Virus record (IMG/VR): IMGVR_UViG_3300021074_000193
Span: 1-23,907 of that record
From: a virus
DNA: 23,907 bases
Strand: one strand, 5' to 3'
Positions 4,916 through 23,907 of the stretch are shown here, piece after piece. The first letter of the stretch is position 1. Each line of letters opens with the position of its first letter. The translations under genes were made by a program, and so were the position numbers. The notes under the pieces are model-generated. The model was not told the DNA's origin, did no database searches, and worked only from the letters and a program-made list of their open reading frames with translations.

Positions 4916-5227
4916 ATGAGCAGTAAACGACAACAAGTAACAGCCGTTATATACGACAAACGTGGGCGCGTGCTTAGTATTGGACAGAATAGCTACATAA
5001 AGTCGCATCCTGTTCAAGCTCGGCACGCTAAACGCGTTGGCAAAGAACACCATATTTACCTACACGCAGAAATTGCAGCCATTACTCGTTGTCAAGACAT
5101 TGCACGTGCACACCGTATATTTGTTACTAGATATGATGCTAGTGGCAATCCTACCCTAGCCAAGCCCTGTGAAATATGTTGCAGTGCTATTAGTGCTACA
5201 CCAATTAAAATTATAGATCACACTTAA
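4916..5227 (+). CDS. Cytidine/deoxycytidylate deaminase-family protein (103 aa)
   Basis: The zinc-dependent deaminase motifs are present: H50-A-E52 (LHAEIAAI) for one zinc ligand and the catalytic glutamate, and P84-C85-E-I-C88 for the two cysteine ligands. The N-terminal strand QVTAVIYDKRGRVLSIGQNSY is the usual first beta strand of the fold. At 103 residues it is shorter than typical dCMP deaminases (about 150-190), so it is a minimal domain. The likely reaction is hydrolytic deamination of a cytosine-type base or nucleotide; the exact substrate is open (dCMP to dUMP for nucleotide supply, or another base). The ATG at 4916 is chosen because the frame upstream runs through the tRNA. AAGGA follows its stop and serves the next gene. 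Confidence 0.75.
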   Translation: MSSKRQQVTAVIYDKRGRVLSIGQNSYIKSHPVQARHAKRVGKEHHIYLHAEIAAITRCQDIARAHRIFVTRYDASGNPTLAKPCEICCSAISATPIKIIDHT

Positions 5228-7684: not shown

Positions 7685-8191
7685 ATGGCTCAACAGCAAC
7701 AACAACGACAAGGAATGCCTTTTGGTTTTCCTATGGTTCCCTACATAGCCCCGCCACCTTCAATAGTTCCGGGTTGGTGTCCGCCGCCTTTTCCCGACCA
7801 TGATTTATTTATTAGGTATAGTCCACCAGGCTCGCCAGGACCACCTGGACCTGCTGGACCCGAAGGCCCGCCAGGCCCGCCTGGACCACAGGGTCCCCCT
7901 GGGTCGTTGGCAAACTTGCCGGTTACCTTAGTAGATAGTGCAACTTATCTGGCTACTAATACTGACTACTTTATTGGAGTAATCTTTAATGGCGCAACTA
8001 CAATTACACTACCGGCGGGTACACTAGGCAAAATATTTATTATCAAGGATAGTGTGGGCGATGCACTGACAAACCCAATTACTGTAGTGGCAACTGCTAG
8101 TACCATTGATGGTGCAGCAAATTATATAATTGATTCGCCTTGGGGCTCCATTGGCCTTATATACAATGGAATTGAATGGAATGTAACATGA
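7685..8191 (+). CDS. Collagen-like virion protein with C-terminal beta domain (168 aa)
   Basis: Residues 1-9 are Gln-rich, 10-40 Pro-rich, and 49-72 make eight uninterrupted Gly-X-Y triplets, mostly GPP, as in phage collagen-like fibre proteins that trimerise. The C-terminal ~95 residues (TYLATNTDYFIGV..., GKIFIIKDSVGDA, ITVVATASTIDG, GSIGLIYNGIEWNV) follow the repeating-strand pattern seen in phage tail-fibre, decoration and collagen-fused domains. This suggests a trimeric fibre or head decoration exposed on the virion, outside the cell. It has no signal peptide. It sits directly behind a terminator with AGGGATTACAG before the ATG. Family assignment is firm for the collagen part; virion location is inferred. 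Confidence 0.85.
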   Translation: MAQQQQQRQGMPFGFPMVPYIAPPPSIVPGWCPPPFPDHDLFIRYSPPGSPGPPGPAGPEGPPGPPGPQGPPGSLANLPVTLVDSATYLATNTDYFIGVIFNGATTITLPAGTLGKIFIIKDSVGDALTNPITVVATASTIDGAANYIIDSPWGSIGLIYNGIEWNVT

Positions 8192-8467: not shown

Positions 8468-8496
8468 TTGAAATTTGCTAATGATTAGGGTATAAT
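8468..8496 (+). promoter_or_regulatory. sigma70-type promoter (TTGAAA-17-TATAAT)
   Basis: TTGAAA 8468-8473 and TATAAT 8491-8496, 17-base spacer, preceded by AACTTGA as in the other promoters. It would transcribe the 71-residue gene at 8532 and, if not stopped at the 8785-8825 hairpin, the permuted tmRNA gene. Confidence 0.8.
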
Positions 8497-8531: not shown

Positions 8532-8747
8532 ATGCAAAAAACAAACCGCTTTGATTTTGAGCAACAAATGATGGATTGCTGGGGTGTAGTAGATGATATT
8601 AAAACCATCTACTATCTCCAAGACTTGCGTGATACAACCGAAGACGAAATGCAGAATTTACTGCTAGGCTTGTTTACTATGTATCAAGTTAAGTTTGAAG
8701 TTTTGCAAAAAATGTTTGAAGATTTGGTTTACAGCAAACAGTTGTAA
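8532..8747 (+). CDS. Small acidic hypothetical protein (71 aa)
   Basis: A 71-residue acidic, probably all-helical protein (MQKTNRFDFEQQMMDCWGVV...). Its residues 20-71, with many Asp/Glu and Leu (DIKTIYYLQDLRDTTEDEMQ), suggest two or three amphipathic helices. It has no clear ribosome site (AAACACAAAT before the ATG). It is the only protein gene between the 8468-8496 promoter and the tmRNA gene. I recall phage proteins of this look but no function; a search is required to support any name. Confidence 0.65.
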   Translation: MQKTNRFDFEQQMMDCWGVVDDIKTIYYLQDLRDTTEDEMQNLLLGLFTMYQVKFEVLQKMFEDLVYSKQL

Positions 8748-8755
8748 ACGGGTAG

Positions 8756-8789
8756 CTCCTTGGCAGTTCAATCCTGCCAAGGGGAACCA
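8756..8789 (+). other. T-arm-like minihelix ending in ACCA
   Basis: 8756-8766 pairs with 8774-8784 (11 bp, one G-U) around the seven-base loop TTCAATC, which fits the TTCRANY consensus of tRNA T-loops. The 3' strand runs into A-ACCA at 8785-8789. No matching D or anticodon arm is present. It could be a tRNA remnant, a tRNA-like element, or part of the tmRNA precursor. It overlaps the inverted repeat beginning at 8785. Confidence 0.6.
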
Positions 8790-8825
8790 TACAAAAGCCT
8801 AGTTTATCTAGGCTTTTGTATGGTT
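8785..8825 (+). repeat. Perfect 18-bp inverted repeat with 5-base loop
   Basis: AACCATACAAAAGCCTAG at 8785-8802 and its exact complement at 8808-8825, loop TTTAT. The RNA stem is long enough to be an RNase III substrate. It lies just before the acceptor piece of the permuted tmRNA and may define that piece's 5' end. It lacks a 3' T-run outside the stem, so it is not a classic terminator. Confidence 0.85.
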
Positions 8826-8881
8826 GTATGAAGCAAGCCGAAAGGCGCGCTGGACGTGGGTTCGACTCCCACCTGGTCCAC

Positions 8882-8953
8882 CAGAAGCACATATAGTTGT
8901 CCTAGATGAAAGAAACCTCTGAGGGCTCTAGCGGGGATTATTGTGTGCTTCTG
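8882..8953 (+). other. Intervening-segment stem of the tmRNA precursor
   Basis: CAGAAGCACA 8882-8891 pairs perfectly with TGTGCTTCTG 8944-8953, adjoining the acceptor helix (8873-8879 with 8956-8962). The precursor therefore forms a nearly continuous rod whose loop, with a CTAGA/TCTAG inner stem (8902-8906, 8927-8931), must be removed to expose CCA and the 5' end. This is what permuted tmRNA maturation requires. Confidence 0.85.
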
Positions 8954-9042
8954 ATGGGCCAGTCATGGTTTCGACAGTGTGATAAGTATGTGAGTGGACA
9001 ACTCGGTAGGCGATCTCCGCAAAAGAAGCAAACTATATAAAT

Positions 9043-9075
9043 GCCAACGATGAGGTATTTGCACTAGCCGCTTAA
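9043..9075 (+). other. tmRNA tag reading frame (ANDEVFALAA, stop TAA)
   Basis: The resume codon GCC at 9043 is followed by AAC GAT GAG GTA TTT GCA CTA GCC GCT TAA, giving ANDEVFALAA. With the alanine from charged tmRNA the added tag would be AANDEVFALAA; E. coli uses AANDENYALAA. The ALAA end is the ClpX recognition signal and AND the SspB-type site. The end of the tag is in an 8-bp hairpin (GCACTAGC 9061-9068 with GCTAGTGC 9076-9083). Confidence 0.95.
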
Positions 9076-9091
9076 GCTAGTGCCAAGGTAT

Positions 9092-9124
9092 GCCCCCGCC
9101 TTGTAACCAAGGGGGGCTTTTTTA
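9092..9124 (+). terminator. Rho-independent terminator of the tmRNA gene
   Basis: CCTTG 9099-9103 with CAAGG 9108-9112 extended by GCCCC 9092-9096 with GGGGC 9113-9117 (small bulge), followed by T7. It is 12 bases before the clpP start. Confidence 0.88.
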
Positions 9125-9136
9125 TACAATACTCCT

Positions 9137-9748
9137 ATGACTAAAAACGCAACAGATGATGACTTTATCCTTGATACAGGTATTAGTCGTGGGTTTCGTA
9201 AATGTACTAGTGCACTTTACGAATTTTACCTAAGTGGTTTAATTACTGGTCCTGAAGACTACATTGAGTGGTTTAATACTATTCGCAACGCTAGTGATCA
9301 AGACGTAGTAAAAATTTATATTAATAGCAGTGGTGGCGATCTAAACACTGCACTACAATTTATGCGTGTGTTAAGTGAATCACCGGCTACTATTGTGTGT
9401 AGTGTTGAAGGCAGTTGCATGAGTGCAGCTACTATGATCTTCTTATGTGCTGATGTATTTGAAGTGACTCCACATAGTTTATTTATGTTTCACAACTACA
9501 GCGGCGGAATCTTTGGCAAAGGCGGAGAAATTTACGATCAGGCTGTGTTTGAGCGTGAATGGTCTAAACAATTTTTACAGTATATCTACAAAGATTTTCT
9601 TACTAGTAAGGAGATTGATAGTTTGCTGGAAAACAAAGATTTGTGGTTACATAGTGAAGAAGTAAGTAATCGTGTAGAAGCACTTTGTGAAGCTAAAGCT
9701 AAGGAAGCAAAAAGTGTCAACAAAGAAGACGATACTATCATTATTTGA
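9137..9748 (+). CDS. clpP: ClpP-family serine protease (203 aa)
   Basis: ClpP is the peptidase chamber of ClpXP/ClpAP, which degrades tmRNA-tagged proteins. The fold markers are present: VKIYINSSGGDLNTALQF at 58-75 (the usual IxxxxNSPGG strand-turn, with Ser for Pro), nucleophile S96 in EGSCMSAA, H119 in LFMFHNYSGG and D168 in ENKDLWLHSEE, where bacterial ClpP has ERDRFLS. The triad is therefore intact and the length is normal for ClpP. The last ~20 residues are charged and unlike host ClpP. No Clp ATPase lies in this window, so it would use host ClpX/ClpA or work otherwise. No ribosome site precedes the ATG and a terminator ends 12 bases before, so expression probably depends on read-through. 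A ClpP-like prohead protease is an alternative, but no capsid gene is nearby. Confidence 0.88.
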   Translation: MTKNATDDDFILDTGISRGFRKCTSALYEFYLSGLITGPEDYIEWFNTIRNASDQDVVKIYINSSGGDLNTALQFMRVLSESPATIVCSVEGSCMSAATMIFLCADVFEVTPHSLFMFHNYSGGIFGKGGEIYDQAVFEREWSKQFLQYIYKDFLTSKEIDSLLENKDLWLHSEEVSNRVEALCEAKAKEAKSVNKEDDTIII

Positions 9749-14129: not shown

Positions 14130-14765
14130 ATGATGAAAGAAATCCTTGCTATTTTTGTTCATGATCCTGTGTGCGAAGTTGAGTGTGCACTAGCTATGGA
14201 AGCTGCACTAGAACATAAGTTTGAGGTAAAATTATTTGGCATTGAAGACCTTAACCCTAAATTTTTGTCAAACATAGACATCTTAGCTTTTCCTGGTGGC
14301 ATTGGCGATAGTGACCAATTTGACGAGATCTTTGATACAGATCACGTTGATGCAGTTAGAAACTTTGTTAGTGATGGTGGCAGATATTTAGGCATTTGTA
14401 TGGGCGCATACTGGGCCGGTAGTTACTACTTTGACATTCTTCATGGTATTGAGCCAGTACAGTACATTTCACAACTAGATGCAGATGTAACTACTGATGG
14501 ACCTACCGTTGCTCGTGTAAACTGGAACAGTCAAGAAGAAGATATGTATTTCTATGATGGTTGTGCTTTTGTTGGCAATTTATCATTTACTGATATTGTT
14601 GCCACCTACGGCAATGGCGATCCAATGGCAATTTATCAAAATCGAATAGGTTTAATTGGTTGTCATCCAGAAAGCGAAGAATGGTGGTATGAACTAGATG
14701 AAATTGAGGGCTGGCATGATGGTCGTCACAACGAACTTTTATGTGAATTTGTAGAGGCACTATGA
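14130..14765 (+). CDS. Class I glutamine-amidotransferase-like protein (BPL_N type, 211 aa)
   Basis: The fold markers of class I amidotransferase/DJ-1-like proteins of the BPL_N kind are seen: FPGG at 54-57, the nucleophile elbow GGRYLGICMGAYWAG with C90, and the late GLIGCHPESEEWWYE with H179 and E181. The Cys-His-Glu triad is therefore intact. Similar N-terminal domains are found in fungal biotin-protein ligases; their substrate is unclear and stand-alone phage copies are uncharacterised. No synthase partner is next to it, so it may hydrolyse an amide bond alone. It is first in the operon with the ligase and overlaps ligase start by four bases. The ATG at 14130 has GAGGAAG nearby. Confidence 0.78.
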   Translation: MMKEILAIFVHDPVCEVECALAMEAALEHKFEVKLFGIEDLNPKFLSNIDILAFPGGIGDSDQFDEIFDTDHVDAVRNFVSDGGRYLGICMGAYWAGSYYFDILHGIEPVQYISQLDADVTTDGPTVARVNWNSQEEDMYFYDGCAFVGNLSFTDIVATYGNGDPMAIYQNRIGLIGCHPESEEWWYELDEIEGWHDGRHNELLCEFVEAL

Positions 14766-15715
14766 GCATTAAACAGTACTTAGATTTAGCAAGTCAAGCC
14801 TACTATGCTGGCACACCAATTATTAGTGATAATCAATTTGATCGCCTAGCCGAAACTGCAAAGTATTCAGCTGTAGGCGCACAAGTTGCAGGCGTTAAAG
14901 GCAAACACTACTATCCTATGTACTCACTACAAAAACACTATGAGGATGAGGGCAAGCCTAATCCTATAGCTGGTATGGGTGACGTTACCATGAGTGTTAA
15001 ACTTGATGGTGCCGCTATTAGCCTGCTTTATGTAGACGGCCAACTAGTGCAAGCACTTACTCGCGGTGATGGAGTAGAAGGTCAACTTATTACTGATAAG
15101 TTATTAAGCAGTACTAGTCTAGTTCCACATACTATTTTATCTAAAAAAGTAATTCAAGTTACTGGTGAAATTGTTGCTCCAAATCATATTGCTAATGCTA
15201 GAAACTATGCAGCAGGTAGTCTTAATCTTAAAGATATTACTGAATTTAGCACTAGAGCTATTAGTTTTTTTGCATACAGCGTATATCCTAGTTTTCATGA
15301 TACCTATGATAAAGATATGGTTCACCTAAAATTACTAGGATTTAACACTGTACAAGAAACTGACTTAGAAAAAATTTATCCTACAGATGGCGTAGTTTTC
15401 AGGGTAAATAATAATCAAAAATTTGAAGAACTTGGCTATACTAGTAAACATCCTCGTGGTGCTTATGCTCGCAAAGAACGTGCGGAGCATGTAGAAACTA
15501 AATTATTGGATGTTGAATGGCAAGTAGGCAAAAGTGGAAAAGTAACCCCAGTGGCAATCCTTGAGCCTGTACTAGTAGGTGATGCAATGGTAAGCCGAGC
15601 TACACTAAATAATCCAGGATTTATTGAAGCACTAGGCTTGGAAATTGGTGATACTGTAGCCATTATCAGAGCAGGAGAAATTATTCCATGCGTATTGCAC
15701 AAAGTAGAGGCATAG
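14762..15715 (+). CDS. ligA: NAD-dependent DNA ligase, N-terminal half (adenylation and OB domains)
   Basis: This 317-residue protein is the first half of a split LigA. A short domain Ia (YYAGTPIISDNQFDRLA, 14-30) for NMN binding precedes the nucleotidyltransferase domain with K80 in SVKLDGAA (motif I; the AMP-lysine), TGEIV (motif III), DGVVFRV (motif IV) and HPRGAYARKE (motif V). The OB fold follows: VEWQVGKSGKVTPVAILEPV, then SRATLNN and the GDTVAIIRAGEIIPCV end. Zinc finger, HhH and BRCT are absent and are encoded by the next gene. It should be able to form the AMP-enzyme; nick sealing probably needs the second protein. Start overlaps the upstream stop (ATGAGC at 14762). Split ligases are known in T5-like phages. 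Confidence 0.93.
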   Translation: MSIKQYLDLASQAYYAGTPIISDNQFDRLAETAKYSAVGAQVAGVKGKHYYPMYSLQKHYEDEGKPNPIAGMGDVTMSVKLDGAAISLLYVDGQLVQALTRGDGVEGQLITDKLLSSTSLVPHTILSKKVIQVTGEIVAPNHIANARNYAAGSLNLKDITEFSTRAISFFAYSVYPSFHDTYDKDMVHLKLLGFNTVQETDLEKIYPTDGVVFRVNNNQKFEELGYTSKHPRGAYARKERAEHVETKLLDVEWQVGKSGKVTPVAILEPVLVGDAMVSRATLNNPGFIEALGLEIGDTVAIIRAGEIIPCVLHKVEA

Positions 15716-15726
15716 AAAATTTTGAC

Positions 15727-15755
15727 TTGCAAAACACTATCTAATACTGTATAAT
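15727..15755 (+). promoter_or_regulatory. sigma70-type promoter (TTGCAA-17-TATAAT) between ligase halves
   Basis: TTGCAA 15727-15732 and TATAAT 15750-15755 with 17 bases between. A TTGACT at 15722-15727 is nearer consensus but 22 bases away, so it is less likely. It gives the second ligase gene its own promoter. Confidence 0.72.
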
Positions 15756-15781
15756 ACATTATTAAATTTGAAAAACGCCTA

Positions 15782-16543
15782 ATGAAGATAAAAATTCCCA
15801 CTAATTGTCCATGTTGCAACTATACCCTAGAGCTTGTTAACGATCAACTTTTTTGTCGTAATCAAGCCTGTAGTGCACAGCTAGATAAAAAATTAGAGCA
15901 TTTTTGTAAAACATTAGGCATCAAGGGCATGGGTGCTAAAACACTAGAGAAACTTCAGCTAACTGATATTACTGAAATCTACTATCTTGAACTAGATGAA
16001 ATTATTGAGTCCTTAGGTAGTGAAAAAATTGCAGTAAAATTATTAGATGAAATTAATAAGTCTCGCAATAGTGATTTAGCAACTATCTTGCCTGCTTTTA
16101 GTATTCCGCTTGTGGGTAATACAGCAGCACAAAAAATTAGCAAATTAGTGCAAAGCATTGATGAAATTACCACAGAACGGTGTCGCCAAGCAGGTCTAGG
16201 AGAAAAAGTTACTAATAATCTAATCTCTTGGCTAGAGACAGATTTTCAAGAAATGAGGGAGTTCTTGCCATTCTCTTTCACAGTAGATAATAAACCAGTA
16301 GCCAATGTAACAGGTAAAAGCGTTTGCATAACTGGTAAACTAACTTCATTTAAAACCAAGTCGGAAGCTACTAAGGCACTAGAATTAGCTGGATTTAAAG
16401 TTACTGAATCAGTAACAAAAACAACTGATTATTTAGTTGATGAAGATAACAAAGGCAGTTCAAAACGTACTAAAGCCGATCAACTCGGTATTACAATTAT
16501 CCAAAACTTATTACACTTTTTAAACGAGAAAAAATATGACTGA
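15782..16543 (+). CDS. NAD-dependent DNA ligase, C-terminal half (Zn finger, HhH, BRCT)
   Basis: The 253-residue product has the remaining LigA domains in order: a four-cysteine zinc finger (CPCC at 9-12, C25, C30; with the family ending CRNQACSAQ), helix-hairpin-helix repeats (around GIKGMGAKTLEKL, 47-59, and IPLVGNTAAQKISKL) and a C-terminal BRCT (NVTGKSVCITGKLTSFKTKSEATKAL, then DYLVDEDN and SSKRTKADQ, to the end). It cannot adenylate by itself and should join the N-terminal half to clamp DNA. Its ATG follows no strong ribosome site (AAACGCCTA), but a promoter lies just upstream. The last eight bases overlap the next gene. Confidence 0.92.
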   Translation: MKIKIPTNCPCCNYTLELVNDQLFCRNQACSAQLDKKLEHFCKTLGIKGMGAKTLEKLQLTDITEIYYLELDEIIESLGSEKIAVKLLDEINKSRNSDLATILPAFSIPLVGNTAAQKISKLVQSIDEITTERCRQAGLGEKVTNNLISWLETDFQEMREFLPFSFTVDNKPVANVTGKSVCITGKLTSFKTKSEATKALELAGFKVTESVTKTTDYLVDEDNKGSSKRTKADQLGITIIQNLLHFLNEKKYD

Positions 16544-17282
16544 AAAAATTAAGAAATGGTCTGACGAAGCAGTTGCCCAACTACTACAAATTGTAGGACA
16601 CGAGTCCCCTGTATCAGTTGCAAAAGTAGAAGCTGCTGCCGAAGCACTAGAAGTTTCTACCCGTAGTGTAGCAGCTAAGCTGCGTCAACTAGATCACGAC
16701 GTTTCTAGTATGGCTAAAGAAAAAGTCAGCGCATTTAGCGAAGATGAAAGCCACGCACTATTTAACTTTGTTACCAGCAATCCTGGTTCTTTTACCTATA
16801 AGCAAATTGCTGAAACATTTGCTGCTGGAAAATTTACTGCTAAACAAATTCAAGGCAAACTTCTAGCTCTTGAGCTAACTGGTTCAGTAAAGCCTGCTGA
16901 AAAAGTAGAAGTTGCTCGTACTTACACAGAAGCAGAAGAAGTAAAGTTTGTGCAAATGGCTGAGCGCGGTCAATATATCGAAGATATTGCTCAAGCACTT
17001 GGTAAAACTGTTGCCTCAGTTCGTGGTAAAGCACTTAGTCTTACCCGCAAAGGTCAAATTGCAAAAATTCCTGCACAACGTGAATCCCATGCTAAAGATC
17101 AGGTTGATCCTATTGTAGCACTTGGCGAGCGTATTGCTAGCATGACTGTTGCTGAGATTGCATCTGCAGTTGATAAAACAGAGCGCGGTCTTCGTACCCT
17201 GCTTACCCGTCGCGGCATCAATGTTGCTGACTATAAAGGCGCCGATAAAAAAGCCAAAGCAGAAGCTAAAGCTGCTGCTTAA
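16536..17282 (+). CDS. Protein with four HTH/SANT-like repeats (248 aa)
   Basis: Four degenerate repeats of about 45 residues can be aligned by eye: 8-52 (WSDEAVAQLL...VSTRSVAAKLRQL), 67-115 (FSEDESHALF...FTAKQIQGKLLAL), 130-173 (YTEAEEVKFVQ...KTVASVRGKALSLTRKG) and 190-233 (DPIVALGERIASM...KTERGLRTLLTRRG). Each has an aromatic-S/T-x-E start, a helix, and a recognition-type helix ending in a basic stretch, as in Myb/SANT or GcrA-like HTH domains. The basic C-terminal tail (KKAKAEAKAAA) fits nucleic-acid binding. It is cotranscribed with the ligase halves (8-base overlap), so a replication, packaging or transcription role is likely. A terminator follows. Family not identified. Confidence 0.75.
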   Translation: MTEKIKKWSDEAVAQLLQIVGHESPVSVAKVEAAAEALEVSTRSVAAKLRQLDHDVSSMAKEKVSAFSEDESHALFNFVTSNPGSFTYKQIAETFAAGKFTAKQIQGKLLALELTGSVKPAEKVEVARTYTEAEEVKFVQMAERGQYIEDIAQALGKTVASVRGKALSLTRKGQIAKIPAQRESHAKDQVDPIVALGERIASMTVAEIASAVDKTERGLRTLLTRRGINVADYKGADKKAKAEAKAAA

Positions 17283-17297
17283 TAGTTATCAAGCAAT

Positions 17298-17333
17298 AAG
17301 GCTGGGAGTTTTTATAGGCTCCCAGCCTTTTTT
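17298..17333 (+). terminator. Rho-independent terminator
   Basis: AAGGCTGGGAG 17298-17308 pairs perfectly with CTCCCAGCCTT 17319-17329, loop of ten bases, then TTTT. The next gene starts 18 bases later and no promoter is visible in between. Confidence 0.92.
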
Positions 17334-17350
17334 ACTTTGGAAACCAGTAA

Positions 17351-17650
17351 ATGAAAGTTACAATTACCTATCACGACTCTGAGTCGTTTACTGTTGAAGA
17401 AGTAGTAAAGCAAGCAGTTCATAACTATGGTCGTTTAGCTCAAGTAGAAGTAATGCCTGAGTCTACAATGGCCTATGATCATATTTATTTTGGTTTACAA
17501 CAGCTTATTACACATGAGCAGTTAAGTTTATTATTTGATCGTGGCAGTACATATCAGCAAGATATTAAACGCTTGCGTGATCAAATTATTTACAAAGTAA
17601 CAGAAATTGTAGACCAGGTATTTATAGATAATGAATCTAAGGTAGGTTAA
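17351..17650 (+). CDS. Hypothetical protein preceding the helicase (99 aa)
   Basis: A 99-residue protein starting MKVTITYHDSESFTVEEVVK with TTGGAAA upstream; one non-coding base separates it from the helicase gene. It is likely mixed alpha/beta with an acidic middle (ESTMAYDHIYFGLQQLITHEQL) and a charged helix (QDIKRLRDQIIYKVTEIVDQVF). Position next to a DnaB-type helicase suggests a helicase loader or regulator, but no loader motif such as a P-loop is seen. Confidence 0.72.
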   Translation: MKVTITYHDSESFTVEEVVKQAVHNYGRLAQVEVMPESTMAYDHIYFGLQQLITHEQLSLLFDRGSTYQQDIKRLRDQIIYKVTEIVDQVFIDNESKVG

Positions 17651-17651
17651 C

Positions 17652-19034
17652 ATGGATGTTTCAGCCGTAGTCTTAAACAAATTGCTTCAAGAGCAAAGCC
17701 TAGATATTTGGGCTAAATTGAAGCTAGTGTTTTTAGATCCGGCTTACTCGTCCTTGTATAGTGTTATCAACAAGCATTATGAAAAATACAATGCTATACC
17801 AAATTTTGATGACTTAGAACTTACACTGCGAGAAGGTCCGGCAGCAAAAACTCTAGCAACGCTAAAGCTAACTGAAATTCCAGATGTAAGTGCAGAAATA
17901 GCACTTGATGCACTTATTGATAGCTATACACAAAATGAAACAGTAAAACTACTGGATAAATTTGTGGATAAACTGCCGCTTTACGACTCCAATGAAATAA
18001 AAGAAAATTTAGCTACAATTGCACTTACAATTGAAGAAAAAACACATACCAGCGAAAAAGTGTTTACAATGGCTGATATGTTAATGTTTCAACATCCAGA
18101 AGATTTGGAAAAAGAACGTGTATATCTTGGACTTAATAATACTTTTGATGCTGTGCTTGGCGGTGTGGCTAGGCAAGAACTTATCCTTATCGGGGGTAAA
18201 AGAGGTAGTGGCAAAAGTATTACTAGTAGCAATATTTTTGTTAATCAGTATCAGGCTGGAAATAGCAGTCTTTACTTTTCTATTGAAATGACTGCTTACG
18301 AGACTATGCAACGAAATCTGGCAATCTTAGCCAATGTAAATTTACAAAATCTAAAGCAAAATAGACTAACAGATCAAGAACTGCTACAAGTAGTCAAAGT
18401 TAGATCACAAATGTTTGACGGTGCAGAGTGCTTAGTTGATGAATTTTTGCGACACCGTGACAGATTTAAATTTGAAGAAAACTTAGTCAGAAACTTTAAG
18501 CTAAAACCAGATAATCAAATGATTATTGTAGATGACAGAGACTTGACCCTAGGGGCTATTGATCTGCATATTGGTAAAACTAAAGCAAAATTTGGTGATA
18601 AACTAGCCGTCGTTGTAGTAGACTATATTAATCAGATTGTTATAGAAGGCAATAGTCAGTATGACTGGCAACCTCAAACTGAGGTTTCAAAGAAACTAAA
18701 GAATTTAGCTAGAAAGTATGAAGTAGTAATAGTAAGCCCTTATCAAATTGACGCTAGCGGTGAGGCAAGATTTGCTAAAGGTATCCTAGACGCAGCAGAT
18801 ATAGCACTGGTAATGGAAGCACATGAAAAAGACGCACAAGCAATTAGTTTTGAAACAACAAAGATTCGTGGGGGAAAAGAGATGGCATTTACTTGCCCTA
18901 TTGATTGGGATACACTCAGAATATCCCCCCAAAGTATTGATCAACCATCTAAAAAAGAACCTGTTAAGAAAACAGGGGGCAAAAAAGATAATCAAACACA
19001 AGAACTCGCAACTGATTTACCTTGGAATGCATAG
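17652..19034 (+). CDS. Replicative DNA helicase, DnaB/gp4-like (460 aa)
   Basis: The product is a RecA-fold hexameric helicase that unwinds DNA at the phage fork using NTP. The N-terminal ~150 residues are helical (the primase-binding region in DnaB); the core contains the P-loop ILIGGKRGSGKS at 178-189, the DnaB-like strand LYFSIEMTAYETMQRNLA, the Walker B strand LAVVVVDYINQI (aspartate in VVDY) and a late motif around VIVSPYQIDASGEARFAKGI with a glutamine like the sensor of this family. It is about the length of DnaB (470). The C-terminus ends with Lys-rich linker and ATDLPWNA, acidic/aromatic, possibly an SSB-tail-like interaction end. It follows a small gene by one base and the primase starts two bases later. 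Confidence 0.9.
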   Translation: MDVSAVVLNKLLQEQSLDIWAKLKLVFLDPAYSSLYSVINKHYEKYNAIPNFDDLELTLREGPAAKTLATLKLTEIPDVSAEIALDALIDSYTQNETVKLLDKFVDKLPLYDSNEIKENLATIALTIEEKTHTSEKVFTMADMLMFQHPEDLEKERVYLGLNNTFDAVLGGVARQELILIGGKRGSGKSITSSNIFVNQYQAGNSSLYFSIEMTAYETMQRNLAILANVNLQNLKQNRLTDQELLQVVKVRSQMFDGAECLVDEFLRHRDRFKFEENLVRNFKLKPDNQMIIVDDRDLTLGAIDLHIGKTKAKFGDKLAVVVVDYINQIVIEGNSQYDWQPQTEVSKKLKNLARKYEVVIVSPYQIDASGEARFAKGILDAADIALVMEAHEKDAQAISFETTKIRGGKEMAFTCPIDWDTLRISPQSIDQPSKKEPVKKTGGKKDNQTQELATDLPWNA

Positions 19035-19036
19035 AG

Positions 19037-19888
19037 ATGGATCCCGTTTTAGACTTGATTCAAAAAAACGGATTGCAATTCCAGGTGTCCGGTCGCGATT
19101 ACTTAATCAAATGTTTAAATCCAGAGCATCCGGACACAAATCCTAGTTTTCGCGTAGATCGCATAAATGGAATAGCACATTGTTTTAGTTGTGGATTTAA
19201 AACCAATATATTTAAATATTATGGGGTTTTTACCAATCCTATACCTATAAAAATAGCTCGACTAAAAGAAAAACTGCAAGATTTAAAAACTCAGGCATTT
19301 GGACTAGAACTTCCTGCAGGTGCTACTCCTTATACTAAAACTTTTCGTGGAATTAGTCAGCAAACACTAAAGCATTTTGAAGCGTTTTATACGCATCAAG
19401 TGGAAAAGCTACAAGATAGAATTATATTTCCTATAAAAGATATAACTGGTAAAACTGTAGTATATGTAGCTAGGCATACCTTAAGCAATGGTAATCCTAG
19501 ATATATTAATTATCCTAGTAAAGTGCAAATTCCACTATTTCCTCCACAAGTACCTAGCGGACATAAAAGCTTAGTGTTAGTAGAGGGAATATTTGATATG
19601 TTAAATTTATACGACAAAGGTTTAAAAAATGTTGCCTGTACTTTTGGTACAAATACACTACAAGCCGACACAAAACTAAAACTATTTCCTTATAAAGTAC
19701 AAGGTGTTACACATATATACATATTATTTGATGGAGATAGTGCTGGAGAAAAAGCAGCACAAACTTTAAAAACAACGCTTGAAGAACTAGAATTTATAGT
19801 AGAAATTGTTAAATTGCCTGACGGAACAGATCCTGGTGATTTAGATCAGCTTGATGTACAAAGCATTGCGGAATATATTAAAAAATAA
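19037..19888 (+). CDS. DNA primase, DnaG/CHC2-TOPRIM type (283 aa)
   Basis: Primases lay RNA primers on the lagging strand. The N-terminal zinc motif is C26, H31, C49, C52 (CLNPEHP ... HCFSCGF), the CHC2-type finger for template recognition. The TOPRIM part has LVLVEGIFDMLNLYDKG with the catalytic glutamate and YILFDGDSAGEKAA with the DxD. The stretch QDRIIFPIKDITGKTVVYVAR is the DnaG core strand region. At 283 residues it lacks the helicase-binding C-terminal domain of full DnaG (about 580), so it resembles short phage primases. ATG 19037 is chosen over an upstream TTG because it lies two bases after the helicase stop. Confidence 0.9.
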   Translation: MDPVLDLIQKNGLQFQVSGRDYLIKCLNPEHPDTNPSFRVDRINGIAHCFSCGFKTNIFKYYGVFTNPIPIKIARLKEKLQDLKTQAFGLELPAGATPYTKTFRGISQQTLKHFEAFYTHQVEKLQDRIIFPIKDITGKTVVYVARHTLSNGNPRYINYPSKVQIPLFPPQVPSGHKSLVLVEGIFDMLNLYDKGLKNVACTFGTNTLQADTKLKLFPYKVQGVTHIYILFDGDSAGEKAAQTLKTTLEELEFIVEIVKLPDGTDPGDLDQLDVQSIAEYIKK

Positions 19889-19889
19889 C

Positions 19890-19918
19890 TTGACTTTACT
19901 AGCCAAATACGCTATAAT
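19890..19918 (+). promoter_or_regulatory. sigma70-type promoter (TTGACT-17-TATAAT)
   Basis: TTGACT 19890-19895 begins one base after the primase stop, TATAAT 19913-19918, 17-base spacer, GC before the -10. It drives the DNA polymerase gene at 19939 (CTGGAG ribosome site). Confidence 0.86.
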
Positions 19919-19938
19919 AAAGTATTACTGGAGAATTA

Positions 19939-22221
19939 ATGAAACGAGTTGCCCTAATTGATAAAGCACCAAATCGTACAAACTATAGGGAATACTTTCC
20001 TTTTGAGTTTGAACATTTTCACATGAGTCAGGTGCCGATTACAAAATTATTGAAAAAAGACGTTACACTAGAATTCGACCCTAAACCGTATGATCTTGTT
20101 ATCTTAGTAGGTGCTGAGGCGGCTAAAGAGTATGCTAAAGTTACTAGCGTAACAAACTACGCTGGTCAGCTGGTCAACGAAAAATTTATACCAATTACAA
20201 ACCCAGCTATGCTGGCGTTTAAACCCGAGGGCAAACCTGACTTTCAACGAGCTGTAGATAAGATTCTTAAGTATTATAATGATAGTGTTGCTGCACCTAC
20301 TACTGGTGATTTTGCTGGTATTGATGACACAAACCAAGCCAAAGCCTACCTACAAGAAATCTTGGCAAATGCTCAAGGTTATGTAGCCTGGGACACAGAA
20401 ACAACTGCACTGTATCCACGTGATGGATATGTGCTTGGAGTCTCGTTAACCTACAAAGCTAAACAGGGGCGATACATTACCACAGACTGCATGGATGAGG
20501 AGTGTATTGAATTGCTGCAACGGATTGCTAATGAATTTTATACCATTTTTCATAATATGAAATTTGACTATAAAATGATTCAATATCATCTTGACATTAC
20601 ATTTCCTAGGGACAAGGTACATGATACTATGGTCATGCATTATGCTTTAGACGAAACTGACAGCCATGGTCTAAAGCAATTAGCATTAAAGTACACAGAC
20701 TATGGTGACTATGATAGCGCGCTAGACGAATTTAAACGTGACTATTGCACACAACACGGATTATTGCAAGAACAATTTAGCTATGATTTAATTCCATTTG
20801 ATATTATCAGCGAATACGCCTCAATTGACACAGCAGTAACTTTTGAGTTATTTCACAAGTTTTGGCCTATTGTTCAAGCTAATAATAAAATTAACTGGGT
20901 TTATAAAAACTTGTTAATAGATGGCACACTATTCTTAATGGATATGGAAGAAGTAGGCATTCCTATTTGCAAAGACCGAATGGCTAGAGCTAACATATAC
21001 TTAGATGAACAAATTCAAAATGCCAAAGAAGTAGTATTTGGTTTTGATGCAGTTAAACAATTTGAACAAGCTAGTGGTAAAATATTTAATCCTAATAGTG
21101 TAATGCAGTTGCGAGAAGTGCTGTTTGACTACTTGGGCTTAGAACCAACTGGCAAGAAAACTGGCACTGGTGCAATTTCAACTGATGCTGAAGTTTTAGC
21201 ACAACTTGCTGAAGAACACGAACTGCCAGGTGCAATTCTTAAGGTTAGGCAGCTTAGCAAAATTCAAAATACTTATATTCAAAAAATCCTACCGGAGTTG
21301 GACAAAGATGGGCGAATTCGTACAAATTTTAATCTTATTTTTACCACTAGTGGCAGGTTGTCTAGTAGTGGCAAATTTAACGCTCAGCAGATTCCACGCG
21401 ACAATTCAATCATTAAAGGATGTATCCGTGCACCAGCTGGATACAAAATAGTTTCACAAGACTTAGCTACTGCAGAAATGTATTATGCTGCGGTACTCAG
21501 TGGTGATAAAAATCTACAACAAGTATTTTCAAGCGGCGGAGACTTTCACTCAACAATTGCTAAAATGGTATTTAATTTGCCGTGTCCTGTGGAAGCAGTT
21601 AAAAAAGAGTACGGCAGTATGCGTCAAAGTGCAAAGGCAATTAGTTTTGGTATTCTATATGGTAGCGGTGCTAATAAAGTTTCGCAAACTGTGAGTAAAG
21701 CAACTGGTGAGTTATACCCAGTAGAACAAGCTCGTGAAGATATTAAAGCCTACTTTGGCAAATTTAACAGACTAAAACACTGGCTAGATGAGCGCAAGAG
21801 TTTTATTGAACAAAATGGCTTTACTTACAGCTTTTTTGGTAGAAAGCGCAGGCTGCCTAATGTGTTTAGCAGTGATAAAGGTATTGCTGCACATGAGGTA
21901 CGTAGCGGTATTAATGCTGAAGTACAGTCACTAGCTAGTGATGTTAATTTGCTTGGTGCTATGCGAACTGCTAGACATATTGTACAAGAAGGCTTGGATG
22001 CAAAAATCTTTATGCTTGTGCACGACTCTATTGTAGCTGTAGTAAAAGCCGAACACGTTAATGATTATTGCCAAATACTTAAACTAAATACTCAGCACGA
22101 TCACGGTTGTAGTATTCAGGGCACACCTATTGGTGTTGACCAAGACATAGGCGATGACTATAGTTTTGGAGATTTTGAGGTGCAGTATGAACTTACTGGA
22201 GATAAGCTGGCCCGTGTTTAG
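19939..22221 (+). CDS. DNA polymerase, family A with 3'-5' exonuclease (760 aa)
   Basis: The phage replicase. The exonuclease domain has DTET (D152, E154 in VAWDTETTAL), FHNMKFDY and YASIDTAV with its aspartate, so proofreading should be active. The polymerase motifs are: A, SQDLATAEMYYAA (D508, E513; consensus DYSQIELR is altered), B, RQSAKAISFGILYG (R562, K566, F570, Y574) and C, LVHDSIVAVV (H695, D696, S697; usual HDE). F570 equals Phe762 of E. coli Pol I. No 5' nuclease domain; the first ~115 residues (YDLVILVGAEA, KFIPITNPAMLAFKPEGK) resemble a degenerate family-4 uracil-DNA-glycosylase-like fold, as in some phage PolA proteins. Phe762-type phage PolA is usually linked with virulent phages. 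Own promoter; overlaps next gene by 35 bases. Confidence 0.95.
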   Translation: MKRVALIDKAPNRTNYREYFPFEFEHFHMSQVPITKLLKKDVTLEFDPKPYDLVILVGAEAAKEYAKVTSVTNYAGQLVNEKFIPITNPAMLAFKPEGKPDFQRAVDKILKYYNDSVAAPTTGDFAGIDDTNQAKAYLQEILANAQGYVAWDTETTALYPRDGYVLGVSLTYKAKQGRYITTDCMDEECIELLQRIANEFYTIFHNMKFDYKMIQYHLDITFPRDKVHDTMVMHYALDETDSHGLKQLALKYTDYGDYDSALDEFKRDYCTQHGLLQEQFSYDLIPFDIISEYASIDTAVTFELFHKFWPIVQANNKINWVYKNLLIDGTLFLMDMEEVGIPICKDRMARANIYLDEQIQNAKEVVFGFDAVKQFEQASGKIFNPNSVMQLREVLFDYLGLEPTGKKTGTGAISTDAEVLAQLAEEHELPGAILKVRQLSKIQNTYIQKILPELDKDGRIRTNFNLIFTTSGRLSSSGKFNAQQIPRDNSIIKGCIRAPAGYKIVSQDLATAEMYYAAVLSGDKNLQQVFSSGGDFHSTIAKMVFNLPCPVEAVKKEYGSMRQSAKAISFGILYGSGANKVSQTVSKATGELYPVEQAREDIKAYFGKFNRLKHWLDERKSFIEQNGFTYSFFGRKRRLPNVFSSDKGIAAHEVRSGINAEVQSLASDVNLLGAMRTARHIVQEGLDAKIFMLVHDSIVAVVKAEHVNDYCQILKLNTQHDHGCSIQGTPIGVDQDIGDDYSFGDFEVQYELTGDKLARV

Positions 22222-22714
22222 ATTAGGCGAACATAAGCCTACTATAGAAAACAACCTTGTCTACTACTCAAAAGAGTATGTAGACAAGGAGTCACTAGAA
22301 ACTAAAATAGGCCTACGCATTGTAGACGATAAATCTGTGCAAGGAGCAACCTTAGGTTTGCGCAGATTAGCAATAGTAGGTGCTAGGCTTTTTCCTATAC
22401 GTCAAGCACTCTACTTTTTAGGTGATTTAATTAAAATAGCCAAACAAACTACGTGGTTTATTGATAACACTGGCAAGGTGTTTCAGTACAGAAAATCTAG
22501 TCGCGCCAAGCTGGCTGCGCACAAGATCACAAAAGTTTTGCCGCTTGATGGTATGGGCGCGGTCATAGAAGTGCAAGGTCTACCGCAGCGGTTTAAGTGT
22601 ATGTATGCACCTAAACCAGATCAATACTACGCTGGTATACTACGTTGGGGATTGGGTTATGTATTATATGGATTTTACAATGAAGCATTTAAAACAACGC
22701 ATAGGTTAGTATAG
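22187..22714 (+). CDS. Hypothetical replication-module protein (175 aa)
   Basis: The ATG at 22187 follows GAGGTG at a good distance; it overlaps the polymerase gene by 35 bases and its TAG overlaps the next GTG. The product (MNLLEISWPVFRLGEHKPT...) is basic in the middle (KSVQGATLGLRRLAI, KSSRAKLAAHKITKVLPL) and ends with aromatic segments (YYAGILRWGLGYVLYGFYNEAFKTTHRLV). It has no membrane span or known motif. A fixed place between polymerase and SF2 helicase suggests a DNA-processing partner, possibly structure-specific binding. I do not recognise the family. Confidence 0.75.
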   Translation: MNLLEISWPVFRLGEHKPTIENNLVYYSKEYVDKESLETKIGLRIVDDKSVQGATLGLRRLAIVGARLFPIRQALYFLGDLIKIAKQTTWFIDNTGKVFQYRKSSRAKLAAHKITKVLPLDGMGAVIEVQGLPQRFKCMYAPKPDQYYAGILRWGLGYVLYGFYNEAFKTTHRLV

Positions 22715-23907
22715 TGGCTAAAGCAATTATCTCTAACAGAATCTACTTAGATAATCCTGGTGTAGAAGAAACCAAGCAGATTATAAAAACGCTTACTTAT
22801 AAAATTCATAAGGACACAGGCAGCAAGCAGTTTAGTACAGTAGAAACTATAAAAAACTACAAAATATTGCCTAAAAATATCCTAAGTTTACCACAAGGCA
22901 GATTAGACTTAATACCTAGTGGTTATGAAATTGTAGATAAACGTACACAAGTATCAGTACCTTTTCCTGACCCTAAATTTGCGCTGCGCGACACACAGCA
23001 GGTAGTTTATGACGAAATTCAGGATACTTGCTTTATTAACGCACTAGTAGGTTGGGGCAAAACTTTTACTGCACTACACGTAGCTAAAAAACTAGGACAA
23101 AAAACACTAGTAGTTACACATACTACTGCCCTACGAGATCAGTGGCGTGAAGAAGTACAAACACTATTTGGTATGCCAGCAGGTGTTATTGGCGGCGGCA
23201 GCATGGCCTGGGAAGATCATGCTATTACAGTAGCTAATGTTCAAACACTAGTAAAATATAGTGCAAAATTGGCTAAAGAATTTGGTACTATTATTTTAGA
23301 TGAAGCACATCACTGCCCTGCTAGTACGTTTTCACAATTAATAGATGATTTTCATGCTCGTTATAGAATAGCACTTAGTGGCACTATGATCAGAAAAGAC
23401 GGCAAGCACATAATGTTTGCTGATTTTTTTGGCAGTAAAATATATAAGCCTCCACAATCTCATACACTAAATCCTGAAGTTAAACTAATACAAACAGGCA
23501 TTACCTTAAAACCTGGAGCAACTTGGGTAGAAAAAATCAATCATCTTACAGAAGATGAAGACTATCAAGCATTTATTGCTGAATTAGCAAAAATTCAAGT
23601 TGCACTTGGATACCAGGTTTTAGTTATTGCAGATAGAGTTGGATTCTTACAAAAGGTAAAAGAATATGTTGGAGAAACGTGCGTGTTGGTTACTGGTGAA
23701 ACCAATTTTGAACAACGTCAACAAATCAAACAGCAATTACTCACAAAAGAAAAAATGTGCATTGCTGGCAGCAGGCAGATTTTTAGTGAAGGCATCTCAA
23801 TAAATTCACTTAGTTGCGTTATCTTGGCAGTTCCTATTGCAAATGATAGTTTACTAGAACAAATTGTTGGCAGAATTCAACGCGAACATGAGGATAAACT
23901 AGTTCCA
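22714..23907 (+). CDS. SF2 helicase (DEAD/DEAH, UvsW/XPB-like), 3' end outside window
   Basis: A GTG start overlaps the previous TAG. The 398 codons run open to the window edge, so the C-terminus is cut. SF2 motifs occur in order: LRDTQQ (91-96, Q-like), ALVGWGKTFTA (110-120; GWGKT at 113-117 in place of GxGKT), LVVTHTTALRDQW (132-144, Ia), LDEAHH (195-200; DEAH), LSGT (221-224; motif III), and QIVGRIQRE (383-391; motif VI). These helicases unwind or anneal branched DNA in repair and recombination-dependent replication, as UvsW does in T4. Placement with polA, primase and DnaB supports that. Function is inferred from family. Confidence 0.92.
   Translation, partial: MAKAIISNRIYLDNPGVEETKQIIKTLTYKIHKDTGSKQFSTVETIKNYKILPKNILSLPQGRLDLIPSGYEIVDKRTQVSVPFPDPKFALRDTQQVVYDEIQDTCFINALVGWGKTFTALHVAKKLGQKTLVVTHTTALRDQWREEVQTLFGMPAGVIGGGSMAWEDHAITVANVQTLVKYSAKLAKEFGTIILDEAHHCPASTFSQLIDDFHARYRIALSGTMIRKDGKHIMFADFFGSKIYKPPQSHTLNPEVKLIQTGITLKPGATWVEKINHLTEDEDYQAFIAELAKIQVALGYQVLVIADRVGFLQKVKEYVGETCVLVTGETNFEQRQQIKQQLLTKEKMCIAGSRQIFSEGISINSLSCVILAVPIANDSLLEQIVGRIQREHEDKLVP

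Follow-up and report, generated by a model that had tools for sequence, protein, structure and literature searches.

A predicted permuted tmRNA of betaproteobacterial type beside a ClpP-family peptidase gene on a contig assigned to a T5-like phage

The window, i.e., the whole 23,907-nt stretch of viral DNA that was analyzed, contains a circularly permuted (two-piece) tmRNA gene at positions 8822-9117 on the plus strand, on which the Rfam covariance models and ARAGORN agree. A first-pass annotation, made from the letters alone, had proposed such a gene and a covariance-model search as its check. Both two-piece models match above their cut-off and over their full length: beta_tmRNA (RF01850) with 134.0 bits (E 4.2e-41, gathering score 84) and tmRNA_permuted (RF04321) with 132.8 bits (E 3.2e-26, cut-off 47). 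These scores are far beyond chance expectation. ARAGORN, which is independent of Rfam, calls a permuted tmRNA with a tag identical to the one read in the first pass. The beta model outscores the rest of the clan on this gene, including the alpha and cyano models, and the tmRNA is assigned by sequence to the betaproteobacterial type (RF01850). It is very probable that a T5-like phage has here a complete, predicted functional permuted tmRNA, which would add rescue capacity via host factors. The gene is composed as follows, with helices and short motifs read base by base.

8822-8883, plus strand: acceptor piece (RF04321 and RF01850 alignments; compensatory changes in relatives)
8846-8851, plus strand: 3' strand of P2, CGCGCT
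8852-8855, plus strand: GGAC
8856-8872, plus strand: T-arm, GTGGG-TTCGACT-CCCAC
8873-8879, plus strand: 3' strand of the acceptor stem, CTGGTCC
8880-8883, plus strand: discriminator A8880, then the encoded CCA (8881-8883)
8884-8955, plus strand: intervening spacer (ITS), 72 nt (sequence; fold -30.1 kcal/mol, z -5.0)
8956-9117, plus strand: coding piece with 5' acceptor strand, TTTCGAC, P2 5' strand, tag and 3' hairpin (Rfam, ARAGORN)
8956-8962, plus strand: 5' strand of the acceptor stem, GGGCCAG
8969-8975, plus strand: TTTCGAC
8976-8981, plus strand: 5' strand of P2, AGTGTG
9043-9072, plus strand: tag frame ANDEVFALAA with resume codon GCC, followed by TAA at 9073-9075 (ARAGORN)
9092-9123, plus strand: GCCCCCgCCTTGTAACCAAGGGGGGC hairpin, then TTTTTT (beta_tmRNA alignment, terminator scan)

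All seven pairs of the acceptor stem form (8873-8879 with 8956-8962), and the third of these, G8958.U8877, is G3.U70, the mark of alanine acceptance. P2 (8846-8851 with 8976-8981) comprises 6 bp, two of which are G.U. The features by which a two-piece tmRNA is recognized are thus present: an acceptor half preceding the tag-coding half, G3.U70, CCA, a T-arm, P2 and a tag frame. The coordinates and pairings given in the first pass (7-bp acceptor stem, 6-bp P2, GGAC, CCA, TTTCGAC and tag) were right to the base. Its end at 9091 was slightly short, as the conserved 3' hairpin runs to about 9117. This GCCCCCgCCTTGTAACCAAGGGGGGC hairpin corresponds to the one that the beta tmRNA model conserves at its 3' end (CCTTGTAACCA), and its region is near-identical in 12 loci of the window's clade. 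Together with TTTTTT, it looks like it doubles as an intrinsic terminator.

Relatives were fetched with the neighboring ClpP-family protein as bait, which yielded 80 phage loci; 50 of them, picked partly on a prior ARAGORN flag, were searched as whole records. A permuted tmRNA scores above the covariance-model cut-off in 33 of these 50 chosen ClpP-bearing phage records. The counts rest on the covariance model and not on ARAGORN because some ARAGORN tags (e.g., L027, L036, L040) do not resemble tmRNA tags; these were rejected as miscalled frames or false positives. Thirty distinct phage tRNA-like domains, taken from the ClpP-bearing records and from a separate RNA-pattern scan, align without gaps. 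In their acceptor stem, T-stem and P2, 99.4% of 540 pair cells are paired, where the extraction rule partly required pairing of the acceptor stem and T-stem and P2 lay outside the rule. None of 500 shuffles reached as high a value, and slid structures gave 42-56%. Thirteen of the 18 pairs are altered on both sides, including four out of five in the T-stem and all six in P2. G3.U70 is present in each of the 54 distinct phage sequences extracted. By these comparisons, the tmRNA gene is under strong structural selection. Such selection bears on the view that the gene just rides along in a phage tRNA island, without any function selected for in this phage. While tRNA genes do lie near the tmRNA in many relatives and the adjacent tRNA in the window has already decayed, the helices, CCA, G3.U70 and tag are preserved across divergent phages by compensatory change, and a passenger role is accordingly rated as very unlikely. 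One close relative (L016, around 5000-5060) has a GGGCAGT-like T-arm loop instead of TTCGACT and GTTCGAC instead of TTTCGAC, a likeness to the alphaproteobacterial T-loop.

The tag consists of a short frame with an Ala-rich hydrophobic end and a stop, as is demanded of a tmRNA. ANDEVFALAA is invariant in all nine distinct clade sequences, the mature RNA of which differs by up to 9%. The first-pass annotation described it as a beta/gamma-type tag, and the resemblance to the beta type is only a loose one. In 399 Burkholderiales genomes, screened with a fully sensitive pattern, ANDEVF gives two matches, neither of which is called a tmRNA by ARAGORN, compared with 69 genomes for ANDERF. Absent from the tmRNAs of these 399 genomes, the ANDEVF tag seems to be new. 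A wider claim of absence from all bacteria was dropped; its basis was 0 matches in a scan of 84,980 species that was nearly blind because its AAATGC context suits only three out of 23 bacterial ANDExF tags. Elsewhere, two loci (L130 and L141) encode phage tags that are unusually long, at 28-31 residues (ANADTFDFTALNFTGNTVANDSRFALAA and a relative), and that end normally, in ANDSRFALAA or ANESRFALAA. The phage RNA could alternatively be a decoy that dampens host trans-translation by competing with the host tmRNA for SmpB, AlaRS or ribosomes. A tag-less tmRNA of phage DS6A, expressed in E. coli, inhibits the endogenous tmRNA, as cited in PMC11915505. Yet the gene here has an intact, conserved tag frame, resume codon and stop, all of which would be superfluous for a decoy, and we regard this role as very improbable.

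The spacer at 8884-8955 is expected to be removed during maturation. A 10-bp stem closes it (8882-8891 with 8944-8953), and a closing stem of 7 bp or more is kept in 49 out of 50 distinct phage spacers, compared with 29% for mismatched 5' and 3' ends. Members of the window's clade have a mature RNA that shares 91-99% identity with that of the window. Spacer identity to the window's is 97-99% in two members and drops to 11-47% in six, at lengths of 55-153 nt. Near-identical mature tmRNAs with unlike spacers imply that the spacer is a freely exchanged region within an otherwise fixed RNA. Phage spacers are also long: the median is 76 nt in the ClpP-selected phages (n = 25, a selection blind to spacer length), against 30 nt in 31 Burkholderiales and 26 nt in 23 Alphaproteobacteria (Mann-Whitney p 6e-10 and 1e-8, respectively, both indicative only given the relatedness of the sequences). 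Long phage spacers and their wholesale replacement seem to be new, and the swaps provide natural variants for the study of permuted-tmRNA processing. The spacers of two phage relatives, L018 (1711 onward) and L023, measure 153 and 194 nt, and each contains an ORF that runs into the coding piece, preceded by AAGGAG in L018. Neither ORF has a PHROG match better than E 0.06 or a family match. By eye, the L042 spacer seems to enclose a tRNA-like stretch, but a nested tRNA was dropped there for want of an Rfam match.

Two further elements precede the gene.

8750-8789, plus strand: decayed tRNA, 3' part with CCA, from which an internal stretch of 39 nt is lost (aligned with L007, L011, L012 and L019)
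8785-8825, plus strand: leader hairpin of 18 bp (fold -28.8 kcal/mol, z -7.3), directly before the acceptor piece

The same tRNA is whole, and called, in close relatives (L007, 6345-6415; L011, 7531-7601). At 8750-8789 of the window, no tRNA is called by the Rfam search or ARAGORN. A 67-aa minus-strand ORF at window positions 8689-8892 (WTRWESNPRPARL, GRIELPRSYP) is a mere antisense of this remnant and the tmRNA T-arm; ORFs antisense to tRNA or tmRNA genes are a frequent false gene call. As read by eye from the alignment, the stem of the leader hairpin is maintained through paired changes both in L017 and in L007, there around an insert. Its 3' arm shares GGTTG, the first paired bases of the acceptor piece. 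The hairpin could hence compete with tmRNA pairing, which counts against a functional tmRNA. The same applies to the promoter: no convincing sigma-70 promoter lies directly 5' of the tmRNA, the nearest strong match being at 8468-8496.

Downstream, the window encodes a putative peptidase.

9137-9748, plus strand: ClpP-family serine peptidase, 203 aa, triad S96/H119/D168 (PF00574, phrog_1827, triad, fold)

This gene begins 62 nt past the tag stop. It matches PF00574 with 36.7 bits (cut-off 20.2) and phrog_1827, annotated as 'ATP-dependent protease'. Ser96, His119 and Asp168 are invariant in 16 homologues, with the triad assigned by eye against E. coli ClpP, and the AlphaFold model (mean pLDDT 81) matches ClpP structures (Foldseek E 3e-9, TM about 0.6). 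In all 33 records with both genes, the tmRNA and the clpP-like gene share a strand; the tmRNA lies 5' of the clpP-like gene within 2.4 kb in 28 of them and at 60-90 nt in 12. These records are related by descent, and the linkage seems to be new for this branch. A general linkage of tmRNA and ClpP was rejected, as contigs found by RNA pattern alone mostly have no nearby ClpP gene: of about 31 such phage contigs outside the ClpP set, one has a ClpP match in its flank.

The arrangement suggests a phage-encoded tag-and-degrade pair, in which the tmRNA would tag stalled products and the adjoining peptidase would degrade them with host ClpX or ClpA. Such a pair would supplement a functional rescue tmRNA rather than exclude it. 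The shared strand and proximity, the retained Ser-His-Asp and ClpP fold, and a separate Peptidase_S78 head protease (an ORF of 647-667 aa) in three clade records speak for it. Due to the latter, the ClpP-family gene is not the sole candidate protease there. That same ORF argues against another candidate role, namely that the ClpP-family protein itself acts as the head protease, for which the closest NCBIfam model, a ClpP-related head maturation protease scoring below its cut-off, can be cited. This model match in turn weighs against the tag-and-degrade pair, as do the terminator-like hairpin between both genes and the single ClpP flank among the contigs found by RNA pattern. The linkage may also be explained by position and common descent because both genes sit among tRNA genes. 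Moreover, no Clp ATPase (ClpB_D2-small domain) was found in 14 related records, which are fragments. An SmpB gene is present in none of the 50 related phage records, compared with 10 of 14 control genomes; the phage presumably relies on host SmpB, although this absence is no proof because these records are fragments as well. With neither SmpB nor a Clp ATPase in the respective records, host partners would be needed. On balance, we consider the tag-and-degrade pair unlikely. A broader proposal is unlikely as well: that some T5-like and related phages have a self-made quality-control pair of tmRNA and ClpP-family peptidase, plus a spacer that serves as a slot for swapping or filling while the mature RNA stays untouched.

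From 14762 to 23907, the genes are arranged as in T5: two halves of a NAD ligase, a DNA-binding protein, a helicase, a primase, a polymerase and a helicase. The split NAD ligase comprises the phrog_3359 and phrog_3498 halves; these, the helicase, the primase and the polymerase are in the order of pVp-1, and the polymerase is 48% identical to those of T5-like Vibrio phages. By gene content, the contig is assigned to a T5-like phage, in keeping with the earlier description of the tmRNA as phage-encoded. The tmRNA type hints at a betaproteobacterium as a possible host. The contig also encodes an Hsp20/alpha-crystallin small heat-shock protein at its start (3-374; PF00011, 58.6 bits), a further protein-quality gene, as well as a UvdE-type UV endonuclease (911-1915; PF03851, 149 bits) and, upstream of the tmRNA region, a collagen-like GPPGPPGP repeat protein (7685-8191; below the Pfam cut-off).

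In a maximum-likelihood tree of mature RNAs, the window gene groups with phage copies, at 0.38 substitutions per site from the nearest phage and 1.15 from the nearest sampled bacterium; the tree is built on a short alignment and a partial sampling of bacteria, and has many moderate supports. The first-pass annotation had expected the gene to tell about gene flow from the host. A recent capture from the host is not supported by this tree, in which the gene lies far from every sampled bacterium. Host sequence misjoined to the phage contig, or a recent pick-up, is extremely improbable: the structure is of betaproteobacterial type, but a dozen independent phage contigs have this gene in this position, and both its grouping and the above distances favor a phage source. 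The grouping of phage copies argues for a long circulation of permuted tmRNAs among phages, not for repeated uptake from present hosts. Cupriavidus pinatubonensis has several permuted tmRNA copies, on a plasmid and both chromosomes (L118, L124, L164, L166-L168). The extra copies have the tag ANDEKFALAA, unlike its ANDERFALAA copy, and nest inside the phage group of the tree, as if spread by mobile elements.

In the reading that we favor, a functional tmRNA relying on host factors, folding of the transcript would pair both halves of an alanine tRNA-like domain. Host RNase P would cut 5' of G8956 and host 3'-end nucleases would trim to the encoded CCA at 8883. Leader and 72-nt spacer would be lost, leaving a two-piece tmRNA whose parts the acceptor stem and P2 would keep together. 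It would be charged by host AlaRS via G3.U70, and host SmpB would bring it to ribosomes that, during infection, have stalled on cleaved or decaying mRNAs. ANDEVFALAA would be added and the product degraded by Clp-type proteases. The phage might thereby gain extra rescue while mRNA is cleaved, with ribosomes freed and amino acids recycled; Buchholz et al. proposed a similar ribosome and amino-acid benefit for phage Melnitz (PMC9004378). Why phages carry tmRNAs becomes a testable question in this branch: its gene is intact and conserved, and usually neighbors a member of the protease family by which tagged proteins are degraded.

The possible novelty suggested for a phage-borne permuted copy does not stand, as two-piece tmRNAs of phages are an already known kind of gene. 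Of the 133 unique phage tmRNAs counted by Buchholz et al. (2022), 53 are two-piece, 50 of these coming from marine or aquatic phages, and phage copies span the alpha, cyanobacterial and gamma/beta lineages (PMC9004378). A 2025 tmRNA database includes 79 phage tmRNAs, and one narrow DNA pattern retrieves 34 stretches with permuted tmRNA genes in IMG/VR. For the T5-like setting, the ClpP neighbor and the spacer replacement, no description was found in the open-access papers searched. The phages Melnitz (of Methylophilales), Mosig (of Pelagibacter) and relatives resemble the present case in having a permuted ssrA with a complete tag in a lytic aquatic phage (PMC9004378). Yet they are T4-like myophages with an alphaproteobacterial-type gene and a glutamine riboswitch, whereas the window combines the beta type, a T5-like background and a ClpP-family neighbor. 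In the Mosig gene, the tag is GEDNFALAA and the spacer measures 44 nt, compared with ANDEVFALAA and 72 nt here. The Menderavirus phages of Stenotrophomonas (Marzo, Moby and others) likewise have a permuted gene (by ARAGORN, for Marzo) and an acceptor with G3.U70, but represent another phage group with the tag VAANDDSYTVRIAA, and just 72 nt can be aligned with the window at the DNA level. T5-like phages (Demerecviridae) such as Vibrio phage pVp-1 share the split NAD ligase, the D5-type protein and the order of helicase, primase and polymerase. As a tmRNA carrier, pVp-1 was rejected: its bases 1-100000 contain 22 tRNAs and no tmRNA. The betaproteobacterial RF01850 genes of Cupriavidus and other Burkholderiales differ in their spacer (median of 30 nt), in their tags (ANDERF, ANDESY and similar rather than ANDEVF), and in a promoter region and last GC-rich hairpin that were not found in the window gene. 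With these bacterial genes the window gene shares the gene order, the G3.U70 acceptor, P2, a tag ending in ALAA and the conserved 3' hairpin.
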